From the IMG/VR virus record IMGVR_UViG_3300031999_000017, positions 1-62,651 of that record: a DNA stretch of 62,651 nucleotides. One strand, written 5' to 3'. Shown here in pieces: positions 31,868-62,340 of this stretch (its first letter is position 1; each line of letters starts with the position of its first letter). The notes under the pieces are model-generated. The model saw only the letters and a list, made by a program, of their open reading frames with translations. It did not search any database and had not been told where the DNA came from. This stretch comes from a virus. The position numbers were made by a program, and so were the translations under genes.

Positions 31868-34800
31868 ATGACAAACGAACAACCAATCCAAGAAACCGAA
31901 GTAATACAAACGCCAACCCAAACCGAAGCCATTACCGAGGTATTGGTTGATCCAATATATAAACATAAAGACGGTAGAATATTTACCAAAAACCAGTTAA
32001 TGACCAAGATGGGATTAACTGAAGATAGAATTAAAGATGGCATATCTAAAGGCATGATCACCCAAGTAGGAGACACTGACGATCCTACCCAGCAATTTAA
32101 GCATAAAGACGGCAGGATTTTTTCTATGAAAGAGTTTGCGGCCCAAGGTGTTACTAAAGACAGAGTAGCAAGTGGGATAGAGAAAGGAATGATAGTGCCA
32201 ATTGAAAAAAAAAATCAAGTCGCTACTACAAAACCGCCTTTGGAAACGCAAAAGCCAGAGCCGCCAGTTTCTACAACTGGTGCTGCGGCTGGCGCATCAG
32301 TATCTACCACACCTCCAGCAGAAGAAAAACCAGTTGAAACCCCAGTAGCAACTACTCCGCCACCAACACCGGCGGTAGCGCCCCCACCAGTAGAAGAATC
32401 TAAGGTAGACTTTAGTGTTGCTCCAGCAGAAAAGCCAGCAGGCATAGCTCAATTACAAGGGCCAATAGAGCCAGTACAATCTAACATAGCAGTTAAAAAT
32501 ACAGATGGGCAAGACCAGTTTGCAATAATAACAAATCCTCAAGCGCCATTACCTTCTAAAGAAGAAGCTGAAAATTATTTTAATGCGCCTAGCAAAATTT
32601 CAGATGTCAATGTTTTTGATAATGCCGCTGAATACAACAAACTTAAAAATGCAAAGACAACCAAAATAGTATCAAGCGCAGGCGGAGGATATGAAACTGA
32701 AACACCAGATGAAGCGGCAGTAAAAAAAGCAAATCAAATACAACAAGAAGGATTAGATAAAAAAATAGACTACGACAAGGTAGTTAAAATAGGGAAACAA
32801 ATAGACGAATACTATACCGATCCAGAGGAAAATAAAAAACAAAAACAAGATTTAAGCAACCTGCTTTTATCTGGAAATAAAAACCAATTTGATTATTATG
32901 CTTCTCAAATAGCATTTAACAATGAGCTTAAAAAAGGTTTATTAGGGCACTTTAATACAGATGAAACACAAAGAATAATTGGCAACATAGTAATACCGTA
33001 TCAAAAATTATTTGAAACCACAACAAGAACAGGCCCTAATGGAGAACAAGTAATAGTTGCTGCCCAAGGAGATAAAATACCCGGTATTCAACAGGTATAT
33101 AATAATTTAAAAAATACACTTGAAATTCAAAATATTGAAAACAAAGAAGAAATATTAGATAATTTTAGAGTGATAGCTGCAAGAGATATTGCTTTTCAAG
33201 CAATAAATCATCCAGAATATGTGGAAGCCGATTCGTTAGCGAGTACAGGTCTTGATGAAAATCAGATAATAGGAATGAGGTATGTATCATCTGTAGTTCC
33301 AGAGGAAATCGGAAAATATAGAGCAGCATTAATACCAGACGAAGATATAAAAGACAATTGGCAAGCTCAAACCGCAAAGCAACAAGCATTAAAATCGTTA
33401 AGTCAAATAGGAATAAATATAGTTTCTCCGCTTTTAAACGAGACATTGCAAGACGAAATAAAAAATTACAATTTTAATGTAAACGGATTAAATAAAAATT
33501 ATTTTTACGACCAAAATCCAGAAGATTTAAAAAGCTTTGTAACTGCTTTAAATGATCAAGCTAATAGTATAGATAAGCTTTCTAAATTATCAGAAAGATT
33601 AAATACGGATTACAACAATCTTAATGATGATTCAAAATATGGTTATGCTAATTATTATGAAAGACAAGGGCTGCTTCAAGAATTAACTGGACAAAAGCAT
33701 GGATTTATAACACAGCCTTTATTAAAACTAGGCGGAGCTATATACAATACAATAGCGACAGGAATTGATATAGCTAAAAGGCCATTCTTATCTGATAGAG
33801 ATAATGAAGTAAACATGGCTACTATCATGGGTAAAAATATCGTTTTGGAAAACGAACTAAAAGTAACCCAGAAAAATCAAATGGAGAAAATGCCATACGC
33901 AATGACACCAGAATTTGAAGCTGCGTACAATGGCATAATGAACAATAAAAACTTATCCGATCAAGATAAAGAAAACAAAGTTTACGACCTTATAGTAGAC
34001 AATCCAGACGGAATACAAATAAATCCAAAAGGCAAAGAAAGCAATTTAACTCTTGGCTCTTTATGGTATGGAATGACAAACTTGGCTGCTGATTTAGCAC
34101 CATACTTAGCAATTGAAGCGCTAACCGGAGGTACAGCTACTGGAGGCGTAGCCCCATCCATGCTAAGAAAATTTAGTAGCTCATTTATTGCTGCGTTTAC
34201 TACTGGCTTTCATCAATCTTATTTAGACGCTATAAGCAGAGGCAGCCAAAATCCGTATGCAGACGCTATGAGGTCTGCTACTATTAGTTCCCTTGCAATG
34301 GCTACCGCCGGCACTCCAGATATAATGAGGAAAATTATAGGCACTAAGTCTGTTGTTGGTAAGATGATAAACAAAATGACCGACAAAGAAATTTTGCAAG
34401 TATTGAGAACAGAGCCAAAAGCTTTGAGTATGTTTAAAAAAGCATACAACTTTAGTGGCAAGGTAGCCGAAGCCACATGGGAGGGCTTTAAGGGGGGTAG
34501 TAAAATGGTTGCATTAACAACTGCCGCACAAGCTATAAACGATGAAATGTATGGAGATGTAAGAAGTTTAAAAGAATACGTAGATGGCGGAAAATTAGAA
34601 GTATTGAAATTTACTTTATTTGGAGGTATTACCGGAGGACTTACAAGAGGTTTTACCGAGAAATACGGAGATTTAACTAAGTCTGTAATGTTTGAAGCAG
34701 GAGCAAATCCAAAAGAATTTTTAGAAGTTCTTGATTTAAAAATAAAGAACAACGAAATAAGCAAAATAGATGCAGACCAAATAAGAAATAATATTGAATT

Positions 34801-37800
34801 AGCCAGCAAGCTTTACAAATCAACATATTTTGGAGATTCAAAAGGCAAGCCATTGGATGATGCTTCCAGCAGAGAACTTTTGTTTTTAAAAATGCAAGAA
34901 GCAGATATAGAAAAAATAATTACAGACAGGATTCCGGAAGAGCTTGAAAAAAAATTAACCAATCGTCTTTTAAACATTAAAGAAAAAATAAACGATTTAC
35001 GCGATGGAATAGAAGCACCAGAAAGAAAATATAGAAGCATTGATGTATTAACTCAAGGAGATATTATTGCAGGAGATATAATAAAAAACAAAGAAGGTAT
35101 TGCCGGAGAGGTGCTTCAAGTAAACGACAATAAAACTGTTGTTATAAAAGACATTCAAACAGGCGAAAAGTTTTTATGGAAACCAGAAGATATAGCAGTT
35201 AAAGCGCCAGAGCCAGTAGCTAAAACAATCCCAACATTTGGGCCTCCAACTCCTAGACCAACAACTCCTGCACCAACAACTAAACAAGAAGAGATTGTAG
35301 CCCCAGAGCCAGATAGTAATATCATGGTTGGAGATTTAATAGACAAAGCCGGAAGCTATAATGGCAAAAAGGGGGTATTTTATTTAGATGGACAAACTGT
35401 TGTATTTAAAGAAGAAGGAACAAGCAAAGAATACGACCTTGGTTACATCAATGATATAAAAGATACGCCAATAAATCAATATGGTATTCAGCATGAAGAA
35501 TCAGTTGTAAGCGCTAATGAAGATGGAACATTTACTATAAGAGGCAATACTTTAAGAAATGGATATTCTGATCCAATGCAAGCGATAAATAGAGACGCAG
35601 AAGGAAACATAATGAGCGTTACTCTTGATATGCCTAATGGCACAAAAAGAACATTTAGAGGTAATGTAGCCGAAGATTTGGCTTACCAAATTCATTTAAA
35701 AGAAATAACTAAAGACAATGCAACAGCCGCAGAATTTGAACAATTCATCAATGAGCCAGAACAACAACAGCAAGTTAACATTACAGCAGTTCCAGAAGCT
35801 ACCGCGGAAGGTACAGTTGCAGTTAATGAGACAGTTCAACGAGAGACGCTCCAGCCAACAGTCCCAGCAACCACAGAGCCAATCATCACAGGTGTAGAAG
35901 AAACCGAGTTGATAAGACAAGCAGAGCCAGATGCGCGTAGAATGGTAGATATAGAGCGTGAATTTGAAAATAGAGGCTATACCATAGATACCATTGAGGA
36001 TAATGGAATACAAATAATGGACAAAGATGGCGAGCAAGTAGAAGGGCCAGAAGATTTACCTAAAGAATTAAGAGGCCTTGCCGCAGAATACGAAGCACTT
36101 ACAGCCAAGCTTGGTGATGTTAGCGATGTAGCAAGAGAGAAAGCATTGATAGAAGCAAGAAAAGTTACAGAGGTAGAAGCCGAGGTAGTTGAGCCAGAAA
36201 CAAAGCAAATAGAAAGAGTTACAGAAACTAGACAAATAGAAGTTCCTAAAGTAAATGAAGTACACGTTACCAGAAACACAGTTAATCCTATAGGAGTTCA
36301 AGGCGGTAACATATCTTCGCTTCATGAAGATTCAAGATATATAGGAACAGATTTAAGACAAGAATATCCAGAATTATTAAAATATAATGATGGTAATCTT
36401 GATACTGCATCCGCGGCAGATTTGTGGAAATTGGCACAATTAGACCATCCAAACGAATACGGTTTTTCGGTAAGCAGAGGCGCAATGCAACATGAATTTG
36501 AAACAAGAGGCGAGCAAATATTTAAAGAACTTGGATTCCCAACTAATCCAGATGCGCTTTACAAAGCAACATATAAAGGTAAAATTGAAAAATTATCCGA
36601 CATCTTAGATCATGATAATTGGTGGTGGAGCGTTGCCGACCATGCTGATCCTGTTTATGATTACAACAAAGAATTAGCTTCAAAAGAAGCCGAAATAAAA
36701 CAAAAAGAAACAGAATTAAGCAGCATTACTAAAAAGAAAGACAAGGACAAAGCAAATAGGTTAAAATGGGATATTGAAGATTTGCAAAAAGAAGTTGAAT
36801 TATTAAAAGAAGGAATAGCAAAAGGAATTTCAAGACCTATGGGAGATATGCCAACTTCAAAACAAGTTGAACTTCCTAAGTACACAAAAACAGCAGACAA
36901 ATCAAAAAATCCTAAATCCCCCAATGAGGTAAAATGGCTGCCTCAATTTGAAAATAGATACGGTACAACAGAGGTTGAAACAAGATCATTTGACAACATA
37001 CAAGTTACAATAGAAGGATCTGAAGATAGTGGATATAAAATAAGCGCAAATGTTCTTAATGAGCATGGCAGAGTTGTAATTCGCCATAGATATGTAAGCA
37101 AAAAGAAATACAAAACAATTGAAGAGGCTAAAAGCGACACAGTTAGATATGTTAATGAAATAATAGAAAAATCTGAACGAGAAGATAGGCAAGATATAGA
37201 AATGGAACAACTGCAAGATAGGTTGCCAAAAGGATATACTTTTGAACGAGATTATGATTATGATAAAGACGAGTATGAGTACGAATTGTCTAAAGATGGC
37301 GAAATTATTTTTACAGTAGAAACTCCAAAAGAAGCAGAAAATAAAATTAATAATAAAGAGTATGATGCAAAACAATTTGGAGAAATAAAACTAGGTGAGG
37401 CAAAAGAAATAAAAGAAAAAACAACAGAAACTCAAAGAGTATTTACAGCAGCGGAATTAAAAGAAAATCCAGATGTTCTTAAAGAAAATCCAGAATGGTA
37501 CACGGTAGGCTATCCAAATAGCTTTGTGGGTATGTCAACTAATTTAGCTGGATTGCAAGGCGAAGGATTTAATGATCCAAAAGTAGGGGACGTTGTTACT
37601 TTTTCTGGAAAAGAATACGTAGTAAGAGATATAGAAACTGGGAAAAAAGATCCATATAAAACAAGCGTTTCTTTGTTAAGAGTAGATAAAGAAGGAAACA
37701 TACTACGTCAAAAAGATTTAAGTCAAAAAGAACAAAAAGAAATTGCATCTACAGAAGAAGAGCCGACAGAAATAGAAGCTGGGGATGAAATAGAATTTAA

Positions 37801-40800
37801 AACAGCGCAACAAAATACAACAAAAGGTATAAAAGTAGAGATACCGGGCCTTGAAGGACTTGATACTATATTAGTACAAGACGGAATGACTTATGAAGTA
37901 TATGAATTAACTACAGGCATGAAGTTGGCTGATACCGAAAACGCAATGTCTCCGGCTGAAGCAGTAAAGACAATAGCAAACAACATTCCTTCTGGAATGG
38001 CAGAAAAGATATTGAATAAAATATATCAAAGCGAAGAAGTAAATAGATATAAGATTGCAGGAGAAAAACCCGGAATAGCTATAATGAATGAAAGCCCTGC
38101 ATATAAAGCTTTTAGAGAACAAAAAATAGCAGAGGAAGAAAATAGACCATTTCTTCTTGATGAAAAAACAAGAAACGAGTTTTTAAATTTAGCAGAGCAA
38201 GCAAAAAGTGAAGGTCTTGATATTGCAGAAAAATCTTTAATTACTTTAGCTAATACAAGACAAGGCGCAATAGCAGAAACTCCATATACAATTGAAAGAG
38301 CAAAAGAATTATTAGAGAATTATAGAAAAAAGAAAGATTTAGAAGAAAGGAGATTACAAAATATTCCATATCCAGAAAAAGATATAGAAAAAAGAGAAAT
38401 AACCGAAGATGCACTAATTAGAGCAATGCAGCAAGGTTATAAAAGAGATAGATGGAATAAGCTGCCGGAAGAAATTAAAAAAGCAGCATTAGAGGCATGG
38501 AGAAAAGAGGCTGCTATTTATAATAAATACGGATATTATCCAAGCACATTTACTGGAGGCGAAACTTTTTTTGGAACTACGCTTACTTTAGGCAGGTATA
38601 TTGGAGCAACATTATCAAAAGACGCAAGCAAAAGAGAAGGAAAAATAAAAGAGGACTTGCGAATAATGCAAGAAAACTTCAAGCGCATAGACGAAATCTA
38701 TAAGCAAGAAGGATTTGATGTACTTAAAGCTCCAGAAGGACAAACCGCTAAGCCATTAACTATAACAGAGCCGGAGATACCAGTTGAAGCACAAAATGCA
38801 TTTAATAGAATTAAAAATAGACAAAAGAAGGCAGCAGCGCCGATAGAAACAGAAGAAGCAATAAAAGTAAATGATGAAGAAAAAATATTAACTCTTAAAG
38901 AAAAGAATAAAATAACTACAACAATAAATGAGCTAGAATTTGCAGACGATAACGGCAATACTAGGCATAGTGAATTAGTTAATACTATAAAATTATTAAA
39001 GAATCAAAATGAAATAAATAAATTACAAAAGCGTGAAAATTTCACTACAACAGAATTAATTACTCATTTATATTCAGATTTAATAGCCATACCTAAAGAA
39101 AACAGAACTAAAGAACATAATAACTTTATTAAAAAGGTTAATGAAATAGTAAGTTCTGAACAAGCAAAAACAGAAGTAGTAAATTTTGCTCCTTTTGATG
39201 CTGCCGGTGATTTAGCAGAAAACATAAAAAAATTATCTAGCACAGAACTTCCCCAACAAAAAACAATAGAACAACTAAGAGCAGATGAACAAGCAGAGTA
39301 CGATGCAATGCCCGATCCAAATGATAAAGTAGAGCGAAAAAGAATTTACGACAAGTACGATGAACTTATTACTCCTTTATTAAAAGAAACGCCAATAACA
39401 GAAACCACTTCCCCCGCTGTGGAACAGTCGCAAGCAGATTATTTTAAAGATCTAATTAAAGAAGAGAAGCAACAAAATAAAGAATTAAGAAAAAAATTTA
39501 ATGAACCCGACACTCTAGAGGTTGGAGATGTTGTTGTTGATAATGCAAATGGTCGGGGTGGCTACGAAAATAGAGTGATTAGAAATGTAATTAAAAATGA
39601 AAATGGAAGCTATAGAATAGTTTGGCAAAAAACCGATAATTACAAAAAAGGGGATGCGGGTATTTATGAAACTGTAATGACTAAAATGACTATTGGTAGT
39701 GAGCGCACTGGGTTTAATACTTTATGGTCAATGTCTGATGCCAAAGCGCATAATGAATCATTACCAGAAATACCAAAAGAAAAAAGAATTGGCTATATAA
39801 AAGAACCATATTTAGCCAAAATAAAAGCAGAAAGCAAACAAGCAGTTTTATCATCAGACGTAAGAACAACACCAGCAAAAAGTCTAAGCTTAGATGAACA
39901 AAGATTTCAAAATAGAAACGATGTAACTGGCAAGACATTGTTAGTTTCTGATATGATTTCTAACAGAGAAAAAAACCCGGAATCTTTTGATAGAGTAGAA
40001 ACCATTGCTAATAACTGGAAGAGCGCAGAGCAAGATCCAATACATGTATGGACTGATCCTAAAGATGGCAAGACCTATGTGTTAAGTGGACACCATAGGT
40101 ATGCAGCAGCTTTAAAAGCCGGCATCAAAGACGTAAAGACAATAGATAGAACAAAAGATTTTACAGAAGCCCAAGCGATAAAGTTTGCTAGAGAAGAGGC
40201 CAATACAAACAGAGCAATGGAAACTCCATTGGAAAGAGCAAAGGCATTAAGAATTAAAAGAGAAAGAGGTGATAGCAAAGAAGAAATTAATAAGTTTTTA
40301 TCTGCTGAAGGCAAAAACGCCAGTTACATAAACAATCTTTCTTCATTAAGCCCTAACGGCAAAACTATGAAAATGGTTGAGCAGTTCGGCAGTTCACCAG
40401 ATAAACAAACTCAAAAAGAATCAGAACAAAGAGCAGACTGGATAGGGGAAGCAAGAAGAACAATAGCTGGACTTACAGATGCGCATGAAAACGAAATGTT
40501 TGACTTTTTATTTGACAAAAACAAATCAAAAAGAGTAACAACAAAAGCCGATTTTTTACAAAAGGTAAGAGCATCAGTAAAACCATTAACACCCGAAGAA
40601 CCATTAAACATATCTCGCTTTGAATATAAAACACAAGGCGAAAGTGTTTATGAAGAAGAAGTAAATAGCATAAAGGATCAATTAGCCGAACGTCAAAACA
40701 AAATAAACGAAATAAACGGAAGGTTTAATAATCCAAATGCAAAAGATTATATATCTACTGAAAGCGCAAATTATGCAGAAGCAAGAAAAGTAGCAGATGC

Positions 40801-43800
40801 AAAAATCGCAGGCATAGAAGCTGAAAGAAAGGCGCTTCAAAAACAACTTGAAACGGTTTATTCTAACAAGAGCAAATATACTGGCGGCCCATCAAGCGGC
40901 ACATTGTTCTCATACAGAGAAACTCGTCCAGAGGATTTTGAAGATTACGTAGAAGGTGTTACCGACATGATAAATGAATCTCCAGAAAAAACTTTACAAC
41001 AAGTTCAAGCGGAGGTAGCAAATTATTTTGATGATCATACACCGGCATTTAAAAAGTTAATAGAGCAAGCTTACAATGAAGCTAAAAATAATGTTACTGG
41101 GCGAATAGTGAAAACTGAAGTTTTACAAAAGTTAAACAAGGGATTCTTAAAGATAGGCTCAACGATATTTGATAACGAGCAACAATTAATAGCTAAAGCA
41201 AGGCAACTTTCTGGATCAAGATTTAGCGCATTAGACCAAACCGGAAGAACGCCATTAGAATTTTCTAAAGATTTAGAAAAACAATATGGAGTAAAAGTTG
41301 ATTTTCTTGGAAGCTTGGAAGGCGGCGATTTGACTTTGTCAAGAATAGAAGTCCCAAAAGAACTTAGAGATAGCGGAATAGGCACTAAGGTTATGGAGGA
41401 TATTATTAACTATGCTGACAATAATGGCAAGAGAATAGTATTAACTCCATCAAAAGATTTTGGTGCTACATCAGTAGGTAGATTAAAAGATTTTTATAGC
41501 AGATTCGGATTTGTAGAAAATAAAGGAAAGAGCAAAGATTTTTCTACCAAAGAAGCTATGTATAGAAATCCGCAAACCCCCAAACAAACATTTGCAGAAA
41601 AATCACAGACAGCAGGATTTGAAACTAGAGATGGCAAGCCAATAGGATTTAATTACGATACAGACCAAGTAGCGAGGGAGCGCTTTGATTTTTCTAAATT
41701 GAAAAAAATAGGAGAAGGTAGCGATAGAATTGTATTTGATTTGGGTAACGGTAAAGTATTAAAGGTTGCTAAAACAGCAAGAGGACTTGAGCAAAACATT
41801 TATGAAGGAGATGGATATTTAGGTTTTATTCCAGATGTATATGAAAGAGGTTTGAATTATGTTGTAACAGATAACATACCAAGAATAAAAGGTACTGATT
41901 TAGTTCCAATACACGATATAGAAACTGGACAAGAAATAGGTACAGTTCCTGCCGCCGAAATGTTTAAAGATTTAAAGAAGTTTCATCAAGGAGATTTTGA
42001 TAGGCACAATTCAGAACTACAAACTATTCTTGAAAAATATGGCTTTGGAGATGTTAATGGATATGAATTACTTTATGGCGATTTCAATGCTGCAAGAAAC
42101 TGGGGATATAAAGATGGCAAACCATATCTTATAGATGCCGGAACTTTAGGCGGAGTTGAAATGCTTAAAAAATACCGCGGAGTGAAAAATTTATCTGATC
42201 CGGATTTCAGAAAAATATATTACGAAAGCAGACAATTAAAAAAACAGTATGTAGATGCTGATAAGTACACTAAGTTTCACTATGATGAAAATGGAGAAAT
42301 ACTTGGATTTACTCATGGCGGACACATCTATTTGAATGGACAAAAGATAACAGCTAAAACTACAATGGAAGAAGCTGGGCATATTTGGATTAACCACGCA
42401 AGAGAAACTAACTCTTCTTTATATAACGCCGGATTAAAAAAAGTATTAAACAGCCAGTATCTTAAAGATGTAAACGCAAGCGAATTTTATAGAAAAGAAG
42501 CCTTAAAGCAGGGTAAAGAAGGAAGCAAAGCGTATAACGATTACATGCAGGAAGAGGCTCTTGCTAAAGCTATATCTGACGAAGGTGCTAAGTTTGTTAC
42601 AGATGCACAAAGAATAAGCTTTAAAGACTGGGTAAGCAAAATGTGGGATAATGTAATGAAGGCATTTGGTATTAGAGATTTAACTCCAGACCAAGTGGCA
42701 AAACTTTCTTTAAAAGATTTTGCAAAAATGGCGGCAGCAGATGTATTTGCAGAAGGCAAGCCGGAAGCAAAAGCAGAGCCTGTTGTTCCAGAAGTAAAGC
42801 CAGCTCCTAAAGGACAAGAAAATGTAACCGTAACAACAACAGTCCAAAATCCAGAAGGCGAAAGAGTAACGAGAACAGAAACCATACCAACCAAAAATAC
42901 ATATTTATACGAAGGAACAGAAGAAAGACAAAGAGGCCTTTACACTCATTTGATGGAAGCTGATAGCGTTAGTCAAGAAACTAAAAATGCGCTAAAGAAA
43001 AATGGTATTACATATCAAGCAGCCAATAATGCACAAGCGGAATTGATGGCTGAAGATATATTAAAGACTTACAACACAAGAGATGCTTTACAAATAGCTA
43101 GAGGTTCTGATGTTCATGCTTCAGTAAGGTCTGCAATATTTGCTAAACTTATTGATGCCGCATACGTGAGAGAAATGAGAGCTAAGACACCGGAAGAAAA
43201 AATGAGGGCTGCGCAACAATGGAAAGATTTAGTTACAGAGTATGCAAACCAATTAACTGCTGGTGGTCAATTTACTGCTTATGCTGCTCATTTTTACAGA
43301 ACAAGTCCAATGGGATTTATAATGAAAGAAAATGCAGATAGAGAAGCAAGATTTAACGAGTGGTCTAAAGGAAAAGAAAAGACACTGGAAGAGTTGTGGA
43401 GCGAAATAAATGCTACTGCGGAAGGAAGGTCTTTGGTTAATTTAGAAGTAAAGAAAGCAAGAGAAGCAGAACGAGAAGCAGAACGAAAAGTTAGGGATAA
43501 AAAAATTGATGATTTCTTTGACAAGCTAAAAATAAATCCTAAAAATACTTATGGATTTATTATACCACTAGGCGTATTAAACCCGGTCATAGATACTATG
43601 AAGTTGGCTGTAAAAGCAGGCGACAGAGTTGCAGATGTAGTACAGCGAGCAATAGAACAAATATCAGATAAAGTAGGTAATAGCTGGGATAAAGAAGCAT
43701 TTAGAAAAGACTACGAAGAAATGTTAACTGGTGTAGTTGGTAAGGTTACAAAAGAATCTGATGAAGCAACGCAGTTAAGAAAAAGATTGGAAGGATTAGA

Positions 43801-46800
43801 AAAACAAATTGCAGACTTAAAAGAAAAGATAGGCAAGGGCGGAGAAGCCGGAAAGAAAAAAGAAATTAAATTTAGCGGCAACCCAGAAGTACAAAAGCTA
43901 ATAGAAGAAAGAGATCAGCTAAAAAAAGAAAATGAAGATTTATTAAAAAATGCTAAGGCAGGCAAGTATTCTGATGAAGCAAAAATAAAAGCCGCCAAAG
44001 AAGCTGTATTAAAATCCATTGAAGAAACAAAAAGAAAGATTATAGATAACGATTTGTCTATAAAGAAAAAAGAAGGCCCTACTGATGCAGAGCTTACCGC
44101 TCACAGAGAAGAACAAAAAAGATTGCGCAAAGAGTTAGAGGACATGAGAAAAGAAGCGCAAGAAGGCAAGTACGATCCAGTAGAAATGGCTAAGGCAGAA
44201 GCTAAAAGAAAACAGGCAAGGATAGACGAACTTAACAGAAGAATAAATGAAAATGATTTTAGTGCAGAGAAAGAAAAAATGCAGAAACAAAAAACTGCAT
44301 TAGATGATGAACTGGCGGAAACTAAAAGAAGATACGATGAAGCTAAAAAGCAATCGCCAGAATATAAAGAAAAAAAATCAAAACAATTTTTAGATAGATT
44401 AAGAAAAAGGCTTGAAGGATTAAGCGAGCGTCAAAGAAACGAAATAGTACAACGCAGCCTAAAGCAAATAACAGAAGCAGGCGGATTGAATTACGAAGAA
44501 TTTAGAAAGATAGTTGCCGAATCAATGGGCTATAAAGATTTAACTCCTGCTGAAGTTGCTGAAGTAGAAGCGCTTACTAAAACAATAAATTCGGTTGATG
44601 ATGCAGAAGATGCTTTAGTTGCTAATCCAACAGAAGCAAATTTAAAAGCACTTGATAAAGCAAGACAAGATGCTATGACAGCCGGATTGAAATTGTATAA
44701 CAAAACGCACAGGCAAGCAGACATTCCAAGAACATTTGGAAGCCTTATTACTGGATCTCTTTTAGGTACAGTTACACTTGGTAAAAACATAATACAAAAC
44801 GTAGTTATGCAGGCTACCATGAGAGTGCCAAAAGCATTAATTATACAACCATCTGAATCAGCATTAGTTTGGCTTGGAAATAGATTTTCTAATTCTAAAG
44901 CTTTTAATCCTTCTGCAAATATATTTACTGCTCAAAAAGGATATTTTAAAGGAGCGGGCAGAGGTATAAAAAGAGGCTGGTTTAATTTTTATAAAGGAAC
45001 ACAAGAAAGAGATTATTTTGGCAAAATTTCTTATCAATCTACATTAGCTCCACGCGTAGCAGTTAAAGATTTAAAATTGCATTTTAGTGGACAGAAACCA
45101 TTGACAAAAACAGAACTTACAGAAAGAATGATAAGAGCTACGCTTGGATGGCAGCCGGACTTTATTTTGAGAGCAATGGGTTTTGGCGATAGACCGTTTA
45201 GGTGGGCTGCCGAAGGCGCTGCTGCAATTCAAATTGCAAAACTTGAATTAAAACTTGCAGATGAAAATGAAATAAATGCTTTCATGTACGCTCCTAAAAA
45301 ATTTGCATATAAAACTTTAGTAGACCAAGGTATACCAAAAGATGAAGCTTTATTAAGGGCAGCTGAAATAGAAGATAGAATAATTAATGCAGGAAGCAAG
45401 GCGGTATTGGAAGAAGAAAATGTATTAAGCAGAATTTCTAAATATTTAGACCAAGGTCTTTCTACTAAAAAAGATGATTCTAAATTAAAACAAATTGCTT
45501 TTGGAGCAGCTTCAATACTCAAAACAGCTACTTTCCCATTTGTCAAAATACCTGCTAACGTATATTGGCAAATGTTTAAGGTAGCAAATCCAGAGGTTGC
45601 TTTATTGCAAGGTTTATATCATGGAGGAAAAGCTTTTATTGATGCTAAAGGTGGAGATAAAGCAGAAGCAAAAAAACAATATGAATATCTAAAGGATAAT
45701 TTAGCTACAGCAGTTTTAGGGTATGGCGTAATGATTGCGGTATCTAGCCTAGTTGCAAATGGGTATGTACGACCAGAAAATGATGATGAAACCAAAGCAA
45801 GAGAAAGAGAAGGAGAAAAGCCATACGAAAAAGGCAATCAGCTTAATTGGGGAAGAATGATGGGTGGTGAAGATTACTGGATAGACCTAAGTTGGTTTGG
45901 CCCAATTGGAACTACAATGGGAGTTCAAGCTAAAATTCAAGAACAAAACAGACGTAAACAATTAAAAGGAGAAACAGTAGACACAAGCTGGGCCGGAGAT
46001 TTTGAAGATAGATTTACCGTTGCTGAAATGGAATCATTAAATCAACTTGTCTACGATCAAGCCGGAAGAACAATAGGCGCTATAAAAGGTGGCGAAAACG
46101 GTTTAAAAGTTTGGGCAATAAATAGCATGAATACCGGAATGAACATAATTACTGGCGCTACTTATACTCAAATGAGTAAAGCAATGCTACCGGTAGTCCC
46201 AAGATTAAAAGCAGAGGGAGTTATGGAAGAATTTAAAAATAACCAGCAGCAAAGAAATGTTCTTTACAGAAGGTATAGCGGCATGCCGCCAACAAGAGTG
46301 TCTATATGGGGCGATCCAATTAAACAAGATACAAGTTTTTGGGGTGTAGTTAGTAACATGCTTGGCTTCCAAGAAACAGACGCACACCAGTTTGGTGCTA
46401 TTCTTTACTATGATGCACAAAGAACTGGAGACACAAGATTTTTCCCTACAGCAGTAACGGACAAGGTTACAGTAGACGGAGTAGAGATTAAATTAACTCA
46501 AGACCAAAAGGACGAGCTTGCTACATACATAGGACAGGCAAGAAAAATGTTAGTAGGATCATTTGTATATGATTGCGCTTTGCCTTACGAAGTACCAGTA
46601 AAAGGGCAGCCAGCTAAGAAATTGAAATATAATGACAAGGACATGACAGATGCCGACAAAATACATGCGCTTGAAAAGATTTATAATTATGGAAAAGAAA
46701 TAGGGTTTGCTCAATTTCAAAAAGCGCATAAAGAATTTGCTCCGGCAGAACTTACTCCTTCACAGCTTGGTGCTCAAATTAAAAGAGAAGTTTATGACGA

Positions 46801-46948
46801 GAAGTTTAAAATGGGCCTTGAAAAGGTAGTAAGAGCGAAAGGAAAAGAAATTCCATCGCCAACTAAGGAGGAAGAATTGCAGAAAGAAATAGACGAGCAG
46901 AACGAACAAATAAGAAAAATGAGGGATGAACAAGAAAATCCAGAATAA
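31868..46948 (+). CDS. 5026-aa giant polyvalent virion protein
   Basis: One uninterrupted frame taking 24 percent of the window. In order: two KHKDGRIF repeats (residues about 36-116); a Pro/Thr-rich linker (to 190); a hydrophobic membrane-active stretch (about 728-822); small barrel modules starting VGDVV or GDII (about 1062, 1905, 2550); a ParB-like domain (about 2693-2887) with SGHHRYAAA at 2740; a GNAT-like domain (about 3138-3236) with RDSGIGT; a kinase-like domain (about 3273-3455); a degenerate zincin motif EEAGH (3501-3505); coiled coil (about 3965-4185); and a C-terminal hydrophobic domain (about 4285-4632) with PFVKIPANV. This is the layout of polyvalent proteins that are injected with phage DNA. 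No RNA polymerase motif was found. Confidence 0.85.
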   Translation: MTNEQPIQETEVIQTPTQTEAITEVLVDPIYKHKDGRIFTKNQLMTKMGLTEDRIKDGISKGMITQVGDTDDPTQQFKHKDGRIFSMKEFAAQGVTKDRVASGIEKGMIVPIEKKNQVATTKPPLETQKPEPPVSTTGAAAGASVSTTPPAEEKPVETPVATTPPPTPAVAPPPVEESKVDFSVAPAEKPAGIAQLQGPIEPVQSNIAVKNTDGQDQFAIITNPQAPLPSKEEAENYFNAPSKISDVNVFDNAAEYNKLKNAKTTKIVSSAGGGYETETPDEAAVKKANQIQQEGLDKKIDYDKVVKIGKQIDEYYTDPEENKKQKQDLSNLLLSGNKNQFDYYASQIAFNNELKKGLLGHFNTDETQRIIGNIVIPYQKLFETTTRTGPNGEQVIVAAQGDKIPGIQQVYNNLKNTLEIQNIENKEEILDNFRVIAARDIAFQAINHPEYVEADSLASTGLDENQIIGMRYVSSVVPEEIGKYRAALIPDEDIKDNWQAQTAKQQALKSLSQIGINIVSPLLNETLQDEIKNYNFNVNGLNKNYFYDQNPEDLKSFVTALNDQANSIDKLSKLSERLNTDYNNLNDDSKYGYANYYERQGLLQELTGQKHGFITQPLLKLGGAIYNTIATGIDIAKRPFLSDRDNEVNMATIMGKNIVLENELKVTQKNQMEKMPYAMTPEFEAAYNGIMNNKNLSDQDKENKVYDLIVDNPDGIQINPKGKESNLTLGSLWYGMTNLAADLAPYLAIEALTGGTATGGVAPSMLRKFSSSFIAAFTTGFHQSYLDAISRGSQNPYADAMRSATISSLAMATAGTPDIMRKIIGTKSVVGKMINKMTDKEILQVLRTEPKALSMFKKAYNFSGKVAEATWEGFKGGSKMVALTTAAQAINDEMYGDVRSLKEYVDGGKLEVLKFTLFGGITGGLTRGFTEKYGDLTKSVMFEAGANPKEFLEVLDLKIKNNEISKIDADQIRNNIELASKLYKSTYFGDSKGKPLDDASSRELLFLKMQEADIEKIITDRIPEELEKKLTNRLLNIKEKINDLRDGIEAPERKYRSIDVLTQGDIIAGDIIKNKEGIAGEVLQVNDNKTVVIKDIQTGEKFLWKPEDIAVKAPEPVAKTIPTFGPPTPRPTTPAPTTKQEEIVAPEPDSNIMVGDLIDKAGSYNGKKGVFYLDGQTVVFKEEGTSKEYDLGYINDIKDTPINQYGIQHEESVVSANEDGTFTIRGNTLRNGYSDPMQAINRDAEGNIMSVTLDMPNGTKRTFRGNVAEDLAYQIHLKEITKDNATAAEFEQFINEPEQQQQVNITAVPEATAEGTVAVNETVQRETLQPTVPATTEPIITGVEETELIRQAEPDARRMVDIEREFENRGYTIDTIEDNGIQIMDKDGEQVEGPEDLPKELRGLAAEYEALTAKLGDVSDVAREKALIEARKVTEVEAEVVEPETKQIERVTETRQIEVPKVNEVHVTRNTVNPIGVQGGNISSLHEDSRYIGTDLRQEYPELLKYNDGNLDTASAADLWKLAQLDHPNEYGFSVSRGAMQHEFETRGEQIFKELGFPTNPDALYKATYKGKIEKLSDILDHDNWWWSVADHADPVYDYNKELASKEAEIKQKETELSSITKKKDKDKANRLKWDIEDLQKEVELLKEGIAKGISRPMGDMPTSKQVELPKYTKTADKSKNPKSPNEVKWLPQFENRYGTTEVETRSFDNIQVTIEGSEDSGYKISANVLNEHGRVVIRHRYVSKKKYKTIEEAKSDTVRYVNEIIEKSEREDRQDIEMEQLQDRLPKGYTFERDYDYDKDEYEYELSKDGEIIFTVETPKEAENKINNKEYDAKQFGEIKLGEAKEIKEKTTETQRVFTAAELKENPDVLKENPEWYTVGYPNSFVGMSTNLAGLQGEGFNDPKVGDVVTFSGKEYVVRDIETGKKDPYKTSVSLLRVDKEGNILRQKDLSQKEQKEIASTEEEPTEIEAGDEIEFKTAQQNTTKGIKVEIPGLEGLDTILVQDGMTYEVYELTTGMKLADTENAMSPAEAVKTIANNIPSGMAEKILNKIYQSEEVNRYKIAGEKPGIAIMNESPAYKAFREQKIAEEENRPFLLDEKTRNEFLNLAEQAKSEGLDIAEKSLITLANTRQGAIAETPYTIERAKELLENYRKKKDLEERRLQNIPYPEKDIEKREITEDALIRAMQQGYKRDRWNKLPEEIKKAALEAWRKEAAIYNKYGYYPSTFTGGETFFGTTLTLGRYIGATLSKDASKREGKIKEDLRIMQENFKRIDEIYKQEGFDVLKAPEGQTAKPLTITEPEIPVEAQNAFNRIKNRQKKAAAPIETEEAIKVNDEEKILTLKEKNKITTTINELEFADDNGNTRHSELVNTIKLLKNQNEINKLQKRENFTTTELITHLYSDLIAIPKENRTKEHNNFIKKVNEIVSSEQAKTEVVNFAPFDAAGDLAENIKKLSSTELPQQKTIEQLRADEQAEYDAMPDPNDKVERKRIYDKYDELITPLLKETPITETTSPAVEQSQADYFKDLIKEEKQQNKELRKKFNEPDTLEVGDVVVDNANGRGGYENRVIRNVIKNENGSYRIVWQKTDNYKKGDAGIYETVMTKMTIGSERTGFNTLWSMSDAKAHNESLPEIPKEKRIGYIKEPYLAKIKAESKQAVLSSDVRTTPAKSLSLDEQRFQNRNDVTGKTLLVSDMISNREKNPESFDRVETIANNWKSAEQDPIHVWTDPKDGKTYVLSGHHRYAAALKAGIKDVKTIDRTKDFTEAQAIKFAREEANTNRAMETPLERAKALRIKRERGDSKEEINKFLSAEGKNASYINNLSSLSPNGKTMKMVEQFGSSPDKQTQKESEQRADWIGEARRTIAGLTDAHENEMFDFLFDKNKSKRVTTKADFLQKVRASVKPLTPEEPLNISRFEYKTQGESVYEEEVNSIKDQLAERQNKINEINGRFNNPNAKDYISTESANYAEARKVADAKIAGIEAERKALQKQLETVYSNKSKYTGGPSSGTLFSYRETRPEDFEDYVEGVTDMINESPEKTLQQVQAEVANYFDDHTPAFKKLIEQAYNEAKNNVTGRIVKTEVLQKLNKGFLKIGSTIFDNEQQLIAKARQLSGSRFSALDQTGRTPLEFSKDLEKQYGVKVDFLGSLEGGDLTLSRIEVPKELRDSGIGTKVMEDIINYADNNGKRIVLTPSKDFGATSVGRLKDFYSRFGFVENKGKSKDFSTKEAMYRNPQTPKQTFAEKSQTAGFETRDGKPIGFNYDTDQVARERFDFSKLKKIGEGSDRIVFDLGNGKVLKVAKTARGLEQNIYEGDGYLGFIPDVYERGLNYVVTDNIPRIKGTDLVPIHDIETGQEIGTVPAAEMFKDLKKFHQGDFDRHNSELQTILEKYGFGDVNGYELLYGDFNAARNWGYKDGKPYLIDAGTLGGVEMLKKYRGVKNLSDPDFRKIYYESRQLKKQYVDADKYTKFHYDENGEILGFTHGGHIYLNGQKITAKTTMEEAGHIWINHARETNSSLYNAGLKKVLNSQYLKDVNASEFYRKEALKQGKEGSKAYNDYMQEEALAKAISDEGAKFVTDAQRISFKDWVSKMWDNVMKAFGIRDLTPDQVAKLSLKDFAKMAAADVFAEGKPEAKAEPVVPEVKPAPKGQENVTVTTTVQNPEGERVTRTETIPTKNTYLYEGTEERQRGLYTHLMEADSVSQETKNALKKNGITYQAANNAQAELMAEDILKTYNTRDALQIARGSDVHASVRSAIFAKLIDAAYVREMRAKTPEEKMRAAQQWKDLVTEYANQLTAGGQFTAYAAHFYRTSPMGFIMKENADREARFNEWSKGKEKTLEELWSEINATAEGRSLVNLEVKKAREAEREAERKVRDKKIDDFFDKLKINPKNTYGFIIPLGVLNPVIDTMKLAVKAGDRVADVVQRAIEQISDKVGNSWDKEAFRKDYEEMLTGVVGKVTKESDEATQLRKRLEGLEKQIADLKEKIGKGGEAGKKKEIKFSGNPEVQKLIEERDQLKKENEDLLKNAKAGKYSDEAKIKAAKEAVLKSIEETKRKIIDNDLSIKKKEGPTDAELTAHREEQKRLRKELEDMRKEAQEGKYDPVEMAKAEAKRKQARIDELNRRINENDFSAEKEKMQKQKTALDDELAETKRRYDEAKKQSPEYKEKKSKQFLDRLRKRLEGLSERQRNEIVQRSLKQITEAGGLNYEEFRKIVAESMGYKDLTPAEVAEVEALTKTINSVDDAEDALVANPTEANLKALDKARQDAMTAGLKLYNKTHRQADIPRTFGSLITGSLLGTVTLGKNIIQNVVMQATMRVPKALIIQPSESALVWLGNRFSNSKAFNPSANIFTAQKGYFKGAGRGIKRGWFNFYKGTQERDYFGKISYQSTLAPRVAVKDLKLHFSGQKPLTKTELTERMIRATLGWQPDFILRAMGFGDRPFRWAAEGAAAIQIAKLELKLADENEINAFMYAPKKFAYKTLVDQGIPKDEALLRAAEIEDRIINAGSKAVLEEENVLSRISKYLDQGLSTKKDDSKLKQIAFGAASILKTATFPFVKIPANVYWQMFKVANPEVALLQGLYHGGKAFIDAKGGDKAEAKKQYEYLKDNLATAVLGYGVMIAVSSLVANGYVRPENDDETKAREREGEKPYEKGNQLNWGRMMGGEDYWIDLSWFGPIGTTMGVQAKIQEQNRRKQLKGETVDTSWAGDFEDRFTVAEMESLNQLVYDQAGRTIGAIKGGENGLKVWAINSMNTGMNIITGATYTQMSKAMLPVVPRLKAEGVMEEFKNNQQQRNVLYRRYSGMPPTRVSIWGDPIKQDTSFWGVVSNMLGFQETDAHQFGAILYYDAQRTGDTRFFPTAVTDKVTVDGVEIKLTQDQKDELATYIGQARKMLVGSFVYDCALPYEVPVKGQPAKKLKYNDKDMTDADKIHALEKIYNYGKEIGFAQFQKAHKEFAPAELTPSQLGAQIKREVYDEKFKMGLEKVVRAKGKEIPSPTKEEELQKEIDEQNEQIRKMRDEQENPE

Positions 46949-56039: not shown

Positions 56040-56843
56040 TTATTTGATAATAGGATTATCTATGTACTTCTTAATTAAACCTGCTTGCTCATAATTCTCC
56101 GCTTCAACAGCAAGTTCAAGCAGCCTATTCAATACATTAGCAGGGTAATCATTGTAAATAGTTCCCTTCTCATGAGCTAACTTAATACAAGTAGCAGTAT
56201 AGGTATCATCAATGTCATTATTTTCATCAATGTCCAGTAAATCATCAGTATAATACCTATCACTACCATCAATATCAATGGCTAATCTATAAGCCGCTTC
56301 GCTGCAATCAGCAGGCTGATATATGTACGTTGCTTTGCCGCCCAGTAGTTTGTATTCGCCTACATTCGCGCCGAAATCTTCATCAAAATATCTTACAAAT
56401 ATTTCAACTTCGGGATGAAGTTTGCTAAGTACCGCCATGGCTGCAATGGGTGTTGACCATGCAGATAAAAATTCAAAAGCATAATCATCCACTTTGTACA
56501 CATCATAAGCGCCCCATTTAGTGCCCCAATTATTGCAGCACCAGTCATACCAATTATTAGCGCCATACTTTTTAATCAGCTCATTTGACTTTCTTTCAGT
56601 CATAGGCTTGCGCATCAGATCCCATTCAGTTAGCTTGTTTTCCCTTTTCTTCCTGTTCCATTCTTTTACTTCTTCATTAGAAACAATTACAGCAGGGCTG
56701 TTGGTGTTTCTTAGCGCATTTGGTATAGGATAGTAGGCATCAATTTCAAATTCATATTTAGCGCCCTTTACGCTATCTAGTAGCTCTTTTACTTTGCTTT
56801 CTTTTCCATTAAAGCTTAAATGGTTTGTTACATGATTAGGCAT
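56040..56843 (-). CDS. Api92-like/DUF1281-type protein
   Basis: A 267-aa protein. MPNHVTNHLSFNGKESKVKELLDSV is a ferredoxin-like start; NWYDWCCNNWGTKWGAYDV (near residues 96-114) and FLSAWSTPI are the signature of the Api92-like family (DUF1281), small phage and plasmid proteins whose function is unknown. The C-terminal third is acidic with a tetratricopeptide-like helix pair. Leader ATAACAATTAAA is a one-base variant of the cluster motif. Confidence 0.75.
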   Translation of the reverse strand: MPNHVTNHLSFNGKESKVKELLDSVKGAKYEFEIDAYYPIPNALRNTNSPAVIVSNEEVKEWNRKKRENKLTEWDLMRKPMTERKSNELIKKYGANNWYDWCCNNWGTKWGAYDVYKVDDYAFEFLSAWSTPIAAMAVLSKLHPEVEIFVRYFDEDFGANVGEYKLLGGKATYIYQPADCSEAAYRLAIDIDGSDRYYTDDLLDIDENNDIDDTYTATCIKLAHEKGTIYNDYPANVLNRLLELAVEAENYEQAGLIKKYIDNPIIK

Positions 56844-59443: not shown

Positions 59444-59482
59444 AAAAGAAATGAGCTAACTAATTAAGTTAGCCCAATTTCT
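59444..59482 (-). terminator. terminator after the Ntn hydrolase gene
   Basis: GCTAAC/GTTAGC (59455-59460 and 59468-59473) form a perfect stem with a 7-base loop, extended by AGAAAT/ATTTCT after a small internal loop; on the minus strand it ends in TTTCTTTT. It would end the leftward amidoligase/hydrolase transcript. Confidence 0.7.
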
Positions 59483-59498
59483 ACCATTTAACAGCCAG

Positions 59499-60290
59499 CT
59501 AGAATACTACTTCATCAGAGCGAAATTCATCAATACACTTATCACAAACATTCATACTCCAACTATTTACATAGCTCACACTTTCAGCAGATTCGCGGCA
59601 ACATTCGCAAATTTTACAGCCGCGCGCCTCTTCTTCAATATCAATGCTTAATTTATCCGCTTTGCTGTTTACATAGCCCTTACTTTTTGCATCGTAATCC
59701 CATCCGTCCCAGTAATCCCACCCATAACGAGCAACAGCGGGCAATTTTGCCTCCTTTGGCGCTATATAGCTTTTATTGCTATACCAGTTACCCGAATCCC
59801 ATACTCCTAACTCCTCGTTTACTATGCTTGAAATTTCGCCGGATATTATTACCAATTTGCTATATCCAATATAAGTACTTAGTAGCTCCAATACAGCCAT
59901 GTTTTTGACAAAATTATTAGGCAACGCCTTCATGATAGTTTCATTAAAAATATACGTATCTGAAAAGTCGGGGCTTACTCCTACATTATTTATCACGCCG
60001 TTATGTATGAATCCGGTAGTTTTATTAACTTTAAAGGGATGGCAGTTAGTAACATTCACGCGCCCATGTGTTGAGATACGAAAATGTATTGCTATATCAA
60101 TTTCCGGAAATTTCTCCCTAACTGATAAATAAATTTTATGAAAGTTTTTTACCGATTTCATTTCTTTATCTATCTGTATTTTTTCGCCGTCAAAATAACA
60201 TAAGCCCGCGCCATCGGGATTCGCAGCCCAACAAGTTTTGAAAGTTTTAAGGGATAGCGTCCCCTTCGCATTTAATATTGCTATACACAT
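59499..60290 (-). CDS. class-II glutamine-amidotransferase-like Ntn hydrolase with zinc ribbon
   Basis: A 263-aa protein. Met1 is followed by Cys2 (MCIAILNAKG), the nucleophile of GATase-II enzymes once Met is removed. NPDGAG (24-29), HFRISTHG (69-76), NCHPF (82-86), FIHNGVI (94-100) and SDT (110-112) follow in the order seen in purF/asnB glutaminase domains. A C-terminal Cys cluster (CKICECC...CDKC, about 231-256) looks like a zinc ribbon. It should release ammonia from an amide or cleave an amide bond. Located 61 bases after the amidoligase gene, in the same direction. Leader has AACC 17 bases before the ATG. Confidence 0.8.
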   Translation of the reverse strand: MCIAILNAKGTLSLKTFKTCWAANPDGAGLCYFDGEKIQIDKEMKSVKNFHKIYLSVREKFPEIDIAIHFRISTHGRVNVTNCHPFKVNKTTGFIHNGVINNVGVSPDFSDTYIFNETIMKALPNNFVKNMAVLELLSTYIGYSKLVIISGEISSIVNEELGVWDSGNWYSNKSYIAPKEAKLPAVARYGWDYWDGWDYDAKSKGYVNSKADKLSIDIEEEARGCKICECCRESAESVSYVNSWSMNVCDKCIDEFRSDEVVF

Positions 60291-60351
60291 AAATTTATAA
60301 TTTATAAGGTTAAAAAATAATAGGGTTACGGATTAAAATAGCCATGAAAGT

Positions 60352-61683
60352 CTAAATATTATCGTAAATAATGCCATCACCGTTACCCAGTAAAATATCG
60401 GGATTAATTTCAGCAGGGCTATCAACGAATGTTTTTTGTATGCGCTCGGCTATCTTCGCTATGCTTTTTTCAGTCAGCCTGCCTGCGCCGAAATTTCTAT
60501 CTATTGCAACAGCGTTATCTATAAGGCGCTCAAACTTGTCGCGCTTGCTATATACGCGCCTCAATAGCTTATTTAAAGGGTGTTTAACATTGACAGACAT
60601 CAATAATACTTTGCCGAAATTTGCGCCTAAATTAGCCGCCATAATACGAAATAAATCAAGGCGGAACAGAATGGTGTCAAATGTGCGAACAGCGCCGAAG
60701 ATGCGAAATTCAATATAATTACCGCGCAGACGGATTGACTGGTATTTGCTGCCGTCAGCCTTCAGCGCGTCAATTTTTTTCGGTGTGCAATAATCGTTAT
60801 CAAGGCGCTTTTTGTGCATTGCATAAATAAGCGGAAGGAATCCCCTGCATAAGTCCAGCAGCTCGTCATCGTTTTTGCCTTCTAAACTGAAACCAATATG
60901 CCCCCCTGCATTGCGTACATTTTTCACGTTGCAAAAGTCGCGGAGCTCATTCAGTCGCTCAATAGTTTTCGTGCTGTTAAGGTTATAAATTGGCGTTTTT
61001 AGCTCAAAACCATCCGAAACGCTGCTATCTTCCTCAATTACCGCGCCCGTTCTGTCATATAGCTCTTCTTTATCAAAATCAAAGTCGGGCATTTCGTTCT
61101 TTTCTATTTCAATCCCCCAGCCAAATAGCGCGCCCCCTTCGTTATCGTCATATAAAAAACACTTTTCGCGCGGGCCTGCTCCATATCCGTAAAGGCTATT
61201 TATATTCTCCTCCTCTAAATGATATTCGCCATCAGACTCCCAGTAAAAGCAATCACCGCTCTCATAGTATTCGCCTTCATCCTGTACATAGTGGCAGTAA
61301 TCTTCGTGGCAGTAGTCTCCGTTATGTAGCACCATAATACTATTATCCGAAAGGTATTGAGTAACAAACCAATCGCCGCGATATTCAATGCAGTTGTTTT
61401 CATGGGTAAAAACTTGGTTGCCGCGCCTGCCGTATGCGTGTACAGCGTTTTCAGATTCAATATAGCAGTCATCTAGATCGTCAAAACTAAATTCATTGCT
61501 GTCAATGTTATGATGATAAACACAGCCGCAGGCGGTTTCTATTGTGTCCTGAGATAGCGCAATATATCCGCTATCCAGTCTTATAAAGTTTTCGCAGTTT
61601 TGTTGCGCGCGCTGTTTCCAGTCTTTAGGTAAATATCCGTATTTTAAGGCGGAACGGAAATCGCTCAATTTAATTTTTTGCAT
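60352..61683 (-). CDS. amidoligase
   Basis: A 443-aa protein. The catalytic half carries the ordered motifs of the amidoligase (COOH-NH2 ligase, glutamine-synthetase-like) family: GWGIEIEKNE (188-197), IEEDSSVSDGFELKTPI (216-232), NAGGHIGFS (258-266) and IEFRIFGAVRTFDTILF (324-340), with Glu192, Glu194, His262, Glu325 and Arg327 the likely metal/ATP ligands. The N-terminal part (72-160) has repeated Cys/Tyr/Asp hairpins such as CYIESEN, DYCHEDYCHY and DCFYWES. It would form amide bonds with ATP. Substrate unknown. Confidence 0.85.
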   Translation of the reverse strand: MQKIKLSDFRSALKYGYLPKDWKQRAQQNCENFIRLDSGYIALSQDTIETACGCVYHHNIDSNEFSFDDLDDCYIESENAVHAYGRRGNQVFTHENNCIEYRGDWFVTQYLSDNSIMVLHNGDYCHEDYCHYVQDEGEYYESGDCFYWESDGEYHLEEENINSLYGYGAGPREKCFLYDDNEGGALFGWGIEIEKNEMPDFDFDKEELYDRTGAVIEEDSSVSDGFELKTPIYNLNSTKTIERLNELRDFCNVKNVRNAGGHIGFSLEGKNDDELLDLCRGFLPLIYAMHKKRLDNDYCTPKKIDALKADGSKYQSIRLRGNYIEFRIFGAVRTFDTILFRLDLFRIMAANLGANFGKVLLMSVNVKHPLNKLLRRVYSKRDKFERLIDNAVAIDRNFGAGRLTEKSIAKIAERIQKTFVDSPAEINPDILLGNGDGIIYDNI

Positions 61684-61740
61684 GGCTGTAAATTTAAAGA
61701 TTATGTAATAATGTTACGCGAACGTGATAAATAAAATAGT

Positions 61741-62042: not shown

Positions 62043-62210
62043 TTAATGCCCTTTAAAATTAGAATGAAGCACAACATAAGGCGCGCCGTCCTTTACTTTG
62101 CCAAAATCAGCAATTTGCTGCAATAGCTTTGCCAGTGTGCGCGCTGTTTTGTTTTTCACTGTTGTTTGCTTAGTTGTTGCCGCTGTGGCTGTTGTTGTTG
62201 TTGTTTGCAT
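62043..62210 (-). CDS. small basic protein with Thr-rich start
   Basis: A 55-aa protein from ATG 62210: MQTTTTTATAATTKQTTVKNK, then a helix (ARTLAKLLQQIADFG) and a strand (APYVVLHSNF). The Thr run comes from a CAA/CAG-type triplet tract and may vary in length. The leader TTAATCATCTAAATTTTACAGCC matches those at 61683 and 61991, supporting this ATG over an earlier one at 62270. First gene of the leftward cluster; function unknown. Confidence 0.6.
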   Translation of the reverse strand: MQTTTTTATAATTKQTTVKNKTARTLAKLLQQIADFGKVKDGAPYVVLHSNFKGH

Positions 62211-62340
62211 GGCTGTAAAATTTAGATGATTAAATAATGAACACGAAGGTAAGGTAATTAAATTACGCAATCCAAATAAATGCCAATCTATTAAGAATAC
62301 ATTAACTTATAACATTATATCCTCATATCCCCCTCCCTCC
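62211..62340 (-). promoter_or_regulatory. probable promoter region of the leftward cluster
   Basis: No gene. It holds a TGCGTAA site (62263-62269 on the minus strand) and a weak promoter: TTG (62268-62270) and TACCTTCG (62244-62251), one base from TAnnTTTG, with a 16-base spacer. As the only region upstream of 22 leftward genes, it should contain a promoter, but the match is modest. Confidence 0.4.
62325..62338. repeat. 14-bp inverted repeat, right copy
   Basis: ATATCCCCCTCCCT is the exact reverse complement of bases 1-14. Further C runs follow to 62363. On the minus strand these are G runs that could form a quadruplex. Confidence 0.55.

Follow-up and report, generated by a model that had tools for sequence, protein, structure and literature searches.

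What do two adjacent minus-strand genes of a phage make or break together, and do they form a new system? This question is raised by the IMG/VR virus record IMGVR_UViG_3300031999_000017, whose complete 62,651 bases form the window analyzed here; the record is not known to be a complete genome. PHROGs matches to a terminase, a portal protein, and structural proteins of the virion show that the window comes from a tailed phage. The genes encode an amidoligase (60352..61683, minus strand, an open reading frame (ORF) of 443 aa) and a class-II glutamine amidotransferase (GATase-II)-like hydrolase of the N-terminal nucleophile (Ntn) type (59499..60290, minus strand, 263 aa). Their coordinates are those given by a first-pass annotation of this DNA, which had placed two leftward genes next to each other with a gap of exactly 61 bases between the ligase stop and the hydrolase start (60291..60351, minus strand). 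The same annotation ranked the pair first as a candidate for a system not yet described, a claim that falls, as the pair and a larger cassette around it have been annotated and discussed in phages since 2009 (PMC10580990, PMC5498523, PMC11318856, and PMC3890496). We consider the family assignments of both proteins nearly certain, and joint action of the two in one pathway probable. That the two genes represent the known amidoligase/GATase-II cassette of tailed phages in a minimal and divergent form, working as proposed for that cassette and likeliest on a cell-wall precursor, is in our judgment evenly poised.

The hydrolase was assigned from its own sequence and its predicted structure. It matches the Pfam family GATase_4 (PF13230) with 25.2 bits (curated cut-off 23, E value 9.6e-6) and carries Cys2 and the motifs HFRISTHG (69–76), HPF (84–86), HNG (96–98), and SDT (110–112). 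In a 39-sequence alignment, residues C2, H69, R71, T74, G76, H84, P85, H96, N97, G98, and D111 are invariant. AlphaFold models residues 1–180 with confidence, and this Ntn-hydrolase domain (59751..60290, minus strand), with the nucleophile Cys2, H69/R71/T74, H84-P85-F86, N97-G98, and D111, has as its best solved matches GlmS (Z 13.7, root-mean-square deviation 3.8, 170 aligned residues), EgtC (Z 13.6), and PurF (Z about 12.5). A profile of the hydrolase relatives also aligns with GlmS and SPO2029 across the H.R..T.G/HPF/HNG block. Behind this domain is a C-terminal zinc ribbon (aa 228–252, CECC...CDKC; 59535..59609, minus strand), which is modeled at high confidence (predicted local distance difference test (pLDDT) scores of about 82–90) and has a similar counterpart in most of the hydrolase relatives among loci L010–L034. 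These data bear out both the GATase-II motifs and the zinc ribbon described in the first-pass annotation.

In GlmS, glutamine is held at its free carboxylate and amine by R73 and D123. By motif, R71 and D111 of the window hydrolase would be the counterparts of these residues, D111 by position as well, which makes glutamine or a terminal gamma-glutamyl group the likeliest substrate. Because R71 and D111 are conserved, the hydrolase is predicted to be a glutaminase or gamma-glutamyl hydrolase and not an eraser of internal protein amides. An earlier suggestion, that the pair both makes and edits one amide mark, is thus possible, but it is not the reading we favor.

The ligase is more divergent. 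It has no Pfam or NCBIfam match of its own, and the amidoligase model PF12224 (Amidoligase_2) gave no match to it up to an E value of 10 and none in the whole record. Because 19 of 47 related records likewise escape this model, it is insensitive to the clade of the window ligase. Four direct homologues (in L012, L015, L020, and L023; 30–33% identity, E values of 4e-29 to 1e-26) do match PF12224 with E values of 2.7e-6 to 6.7e-5, three of them above the cut-off. Residues E192, E194, D219, E227, G260, H262, R293, E325, and R327 are invariant in a 40-sequence alignment. The catalytic core (aa 181–400; 60484..61143, minus strand; pLDDT mostly about 87–97) is like that of glutamine synthetase (GS): the top fold matches of the AlphaFold model are YbdK, glutamine synthetases, and GmaS, with Dop and PafA further down, and the core scores Z of about 10 against glutamine synthetases and 8.6 against YbdK. 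Its viral structural matches, where named, are mostly called "Amidoligase enzyme." Since the homologues match PF12224, the core residues are invariant, and the fold is that of GS and YbdK, we conclude that the window ligase is of the Amidoligase_2 type. A ligase profile match to a ryanodine receptor chimera (E value 0.036) was taken as chance.

Two descriptions of the ligase in the first-pass annotation hold in part. The "full set of amidoligase motifs" is largely there (GIEIE, DxS, G.EL, GGH, and IEFRIF are present), but the second His of the usual GxHxH is gone. The N-terminal Cys/Tyr hairpin-like repeats (aa about 95–165; 61189..61401, minus strand) are legible in the sequence as GDYC/GEYY/GEYH and are kept in L010, but the structure model is poor over them (pLDDT about 35–50). 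As several related ligases have Cys-rich, zinc-ribbon-like N-terminal parts, these repeats are possibly degenerate zinc-ribbon hairpins.

The structural models agree with the two enzyme folds that had been predicted, and conservation of the neighborhood in other phages was equally clear. For neither protein did single-sequence patterns find a close relative in the viral contigs; alignment queries did find relatives. A survey that began from the hydrolase alone yielded 80 viral loci, 77 with upstream sequence and three that start at a contig edge. A ligase ORF lies directly before the GATase gene on the same strand in all 77 loci with room upstream, ending between −142 and +95 bases from the GATase frame start. 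In L033 (25–3734), the GATase gene lies between two same-strand ligase genes, one upstream (25–1158) and one that follows it. Among bacterial genomes and metagenome-assembled genomes, at least one ligase gene stands beside the GATase gene in 13 of 15 loci, and none is shown in the other two. The pairing is far beyond chance.

The two proteins have also been inherited together. Their distance matrices correlate with a Mantel r of 0.957 over 68 pairs (the maximum of 2000 permutations was 0.19), and L010 holds the nearest relative of both window genes. Because shared phage ancestry alone would also give a high value, we read this number as co-inheritance and not as interaction. Three candidates found along the way were set aside. 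An apparent ligase-GATase fusion in L094 is a frame slip: in the near-identical L092, the ligase gene stops shortly ahead of the GATase start, and L094 retains this TAG but has its ligase tail in a different frame. A long ORF in L104, in which an elongation-factor-like part is joined to a GATase, has the look of an artifact of assembly or frame. Bifidobacterium phage BP677P4 was not counted as carrying a pair, as the ORF before its GATase gene (P0013) has no Pfam match.

The relatives show what else can belong to the cassette. In one clade, 34 loci have an ATP-grasp gene at most about 2.1 kb behind the GATase gene, usually as its immediate neighbor, and L055 has a weak match. The GATases of MW202828 and C75C1 carry a fused gamma-glutamyl cyclotransferase; the protein at 12986–14203 of L001 (MW202828), annotated "gamma-glutamyl cyclotransferase," is actually a fusion of GATase-II, cyclotransferase, and zinc ribbon. 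L101 (4065–9381, labeled uncultured Brachyspira) has three ligase-like genes, a GATase gene, and a cyclotransferase-like gene. L090 (1982–7304, labeled Flavobacteriaceae) has two ligase genes, a GATase gene, and an ATP-grasp-like gene, a larger cassette in what may be a prophage or phage contig. The conserved core is the ligase and the GATase, and the ATP-grasp and cyclotransferase parts are variable, as the window's own clade shows. The window pair is the minimal two-gene form; no model search was made for the COOH-NH2 ligase (PF14395).

The cyclotransferase fusions, and the cyclotransferase-like gene near the GATase in L101, could also speak for a gamma-glutamyl cycle on a small molecule or peptide, in which the ligase would make a gamma-glutamyl amide and an EgtC-like GATase-II would remove the gamma-glutamyl group. 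YbdK and GmaS, both makers of gamma-glutamyl amides, are among the nearest ligase folds, and the GATase model resembles EgtC, a gamma-glutamyl hydrolase, as closely as it does GlmS. Against this, opposed activities within one operon would be futile without regulation, ammonia supply of the GlmS kind accounts equally well for the hydrolase residues, and no cyclotransferase was found in the window. We regard such a cycle as a possibility of modest probability, the most credible of the alternatives considered here.

Published phages supply the proposal that we favor. By itself or accompanied by genes for an ATP-grasp protein, a gamma-glutamyl cyclotransferase, and a COOH-NH2 ligase, the pair occurs in phiEco32, LUZ24-like, RIO-1-like, and OM43 phages and in Marvin. 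LUZ24-like phage UFV-P2 has annotated amidoligase, glutamine amidotransferase, ATP-grasp, and AIG2/cyclotransferase genes (PMC3890496), and the same module is present in a LUZ24-like Pseudomonas phage (PMC11945000). In PSA-HP1 and its relatives, it is named the "Peptidoglycan Modification Cassette" (PMC5498523, which cites Iyer 2009 and Hardies 2013). For OM43 phages, the two genes are discussed with reference to Marvin and to the 2009 phiEco32 proposal of cell-wall modification against superinfection (PMC10580990).

On the reading of the window pair as a member of this cassette, built on the folds, invariant residues, gene adjacency, and co-inheritance observed for it, the two enzymes might work as follows. 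From what is known of the two families, we infer that the hydrolase, once its initiator Met is removed, would use Cys2 to attack glutamine or a gamma-glutamyl compound at the gamma-amide, with R71 and D111 holding the free carboxylate and amine of the substrate, and that glutamate and ammonia or an amine would be released. By the same family knowledge, the GS-like ligase would phosphorylate a substrate carboxylate with ATP and couple the ammonia or amine to it, which would give an amide. Our guess is that the zinc-binding parts keep the two enzymes together or on their substrate. The likeliest target would be a cytoplasmic cell-wall precursor peptide, so that the wall is altered for the phage, for example against superinfecting phages. 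This target is taken from the literature and is a guess that we hold somewhat more apt to be wrong than right.

Several points weigh against this proposal. Compared with the published peptidoglycan modification cassette (phiEco32, RIO-1, PSA-HP1, LUZ24-like, and PA11-like phages), which also joins an amidoligase and a GATase-II in tailed phages and lies there among replication-side genes, the window has neither a detected cyclotransferase nor a detected ATP-grasp gene, and its ligase falls below Pfam detection. The cyclotransferase model PF06094 had no match in the record and none in 28 of 30 related ones; the ATP-grasp profile had no match in the window, and both of these results refer to a record not known to be complete. 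The ligase reads GGHIGF, with Gly in place of the second His of GxHxH. Nothing within the window itself points to peptidoglycan. The available excerpts of the cassette literature report no enzyme assay and no measurement of substrate, product, or phenotype, and the peptidoglycan change is an inference in those papers too. One paper assigns the same gene set instead to nitrogen and amino-acid metabolism (PMC10945688), and zinc ribbons would suit a protein or nucleic-acid target too.

The last two points each lead to an alternative. If the genes were auxiliary metabolic genes that merely boost the supply of ammonia and amino acids in infection, the tight one-to-one pairing of the GATase with a GS-like ligase that is no glutamine synthetase would go unexplained, as would the zinc ribbons; we consider this explanation improbable. 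Alternatively, zinc ribbons could bind a host protein or nucleic acid, to which the ligase would add an amino acid or amine, and the hydrolase would supply ammonia or edit the product. The zinc ribbon on the window hydrolase and the Cys-rich N-terminal parts of several related ligases are consistent with such a modification of macromolecules, and the GS-like fold also includes PafA, which ligates Pup, and the depupylase Dop. Yet no tag peptide was found, the repeats of the window ligase are now mostly without Cys, and the GATase-II residues favor a free gamma-glutamyl substrate. In addition, no DNA-modification gene, and no 7-deazaguanine or thymine hypermodification enzyme, was seen among the window proteins scanned, which cover part of the ORFs. 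Macromolecule modification is unlikely in our view, though a shade less so than the metabolic explanation. A further variant, in which the two-gene zinc-ribbon form of the window's clade would be a separate amidation system guided by its zinc-binding parts to a host protein or nucleic acid, we rate as low as the metabolic one.

Individual known systems resemble the window pair in some respects and differ from it in others. The OM43 (Methylophilales) phages MEP401 and MEP402 have the two genes adjacent and in the same order, with GATases 38–40% identical to that of the window (PMC10580990); the MEP402 GATase is without the C-terminal zinc ribbon, unlike the window hydrolase. MW202828.1 (Podoviridae sp. 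ctfjg026, Manatee Spring) resembles the window in having an adjacent ligase and a GATase with a C-terminal zinc ribbon, and its ligase is the sole ligase match in the phage collection (26% identity, E value 1e-5). It differs in the gamma-glutamyl cyclotransferase domain between its GATase and zinc ribbon. The glutaminase domain of GlmS and EgtC share the class-II Ntn fold and active-site residues with the window hydrolase, but the GlmS domain shares its chain with a synthase domain, whereas the window GATase, with its zinc ribbon, adjoins a separate amidoligase. Outside these families, MurT is Mur-ligase-like and GatD is a class-I amidotransferase; because their folds are unrelated to those of the phage pair, MurT/GatD is no family match. 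It is a working analogy, as a ligase and a glutamine amidotransferase together make the amide in peptidoglycan glutamate amidation in Staphylococcus aureus (PMC3267633).

The window pair is therefore new as a divergent minimal member of a cassette that is itself already described in many phages. That cassette is widespread, and its function has been only a prediction since 2009, which is where the interest of the pair lies. Both enzymes of the window pair are compact and probably cytoplasmic, their active sites are intact, and they make the 2009 prediction easy to test.

The surroundings of the pair hold some further features. Just 3′ of the hydrolase stop is a terminator-like hairpin with a 10-bp stem and a T-rich tail (59452..59476, minus strand), in agreement with the terminator proposed earlier for both genes. 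It is the best and longest-stemmed of four such sites in the region, but shuffled sequences yield 3.3 ± 2.0, so that the number of sites is not above expectation; a shared terminator is plausible. A leader resembling TAAATTTACAGCCATG (minus-strand reading) is common to the starts of several minus-strand ORFs (for example, at 61676–61695 and 62204–62225) and is perhaps a common translation or promoter element. The same minus-strand block as the ligase/GATase pair contains a gene for a protein with a DUF1281_C (Api92-like) domain (56040–56843). On the plus strand, a single ORF of 5026 aa (31868–46948) takes up about 24% of the record and has the look of the large multi-domain ("polyvalent") proteins of phages.
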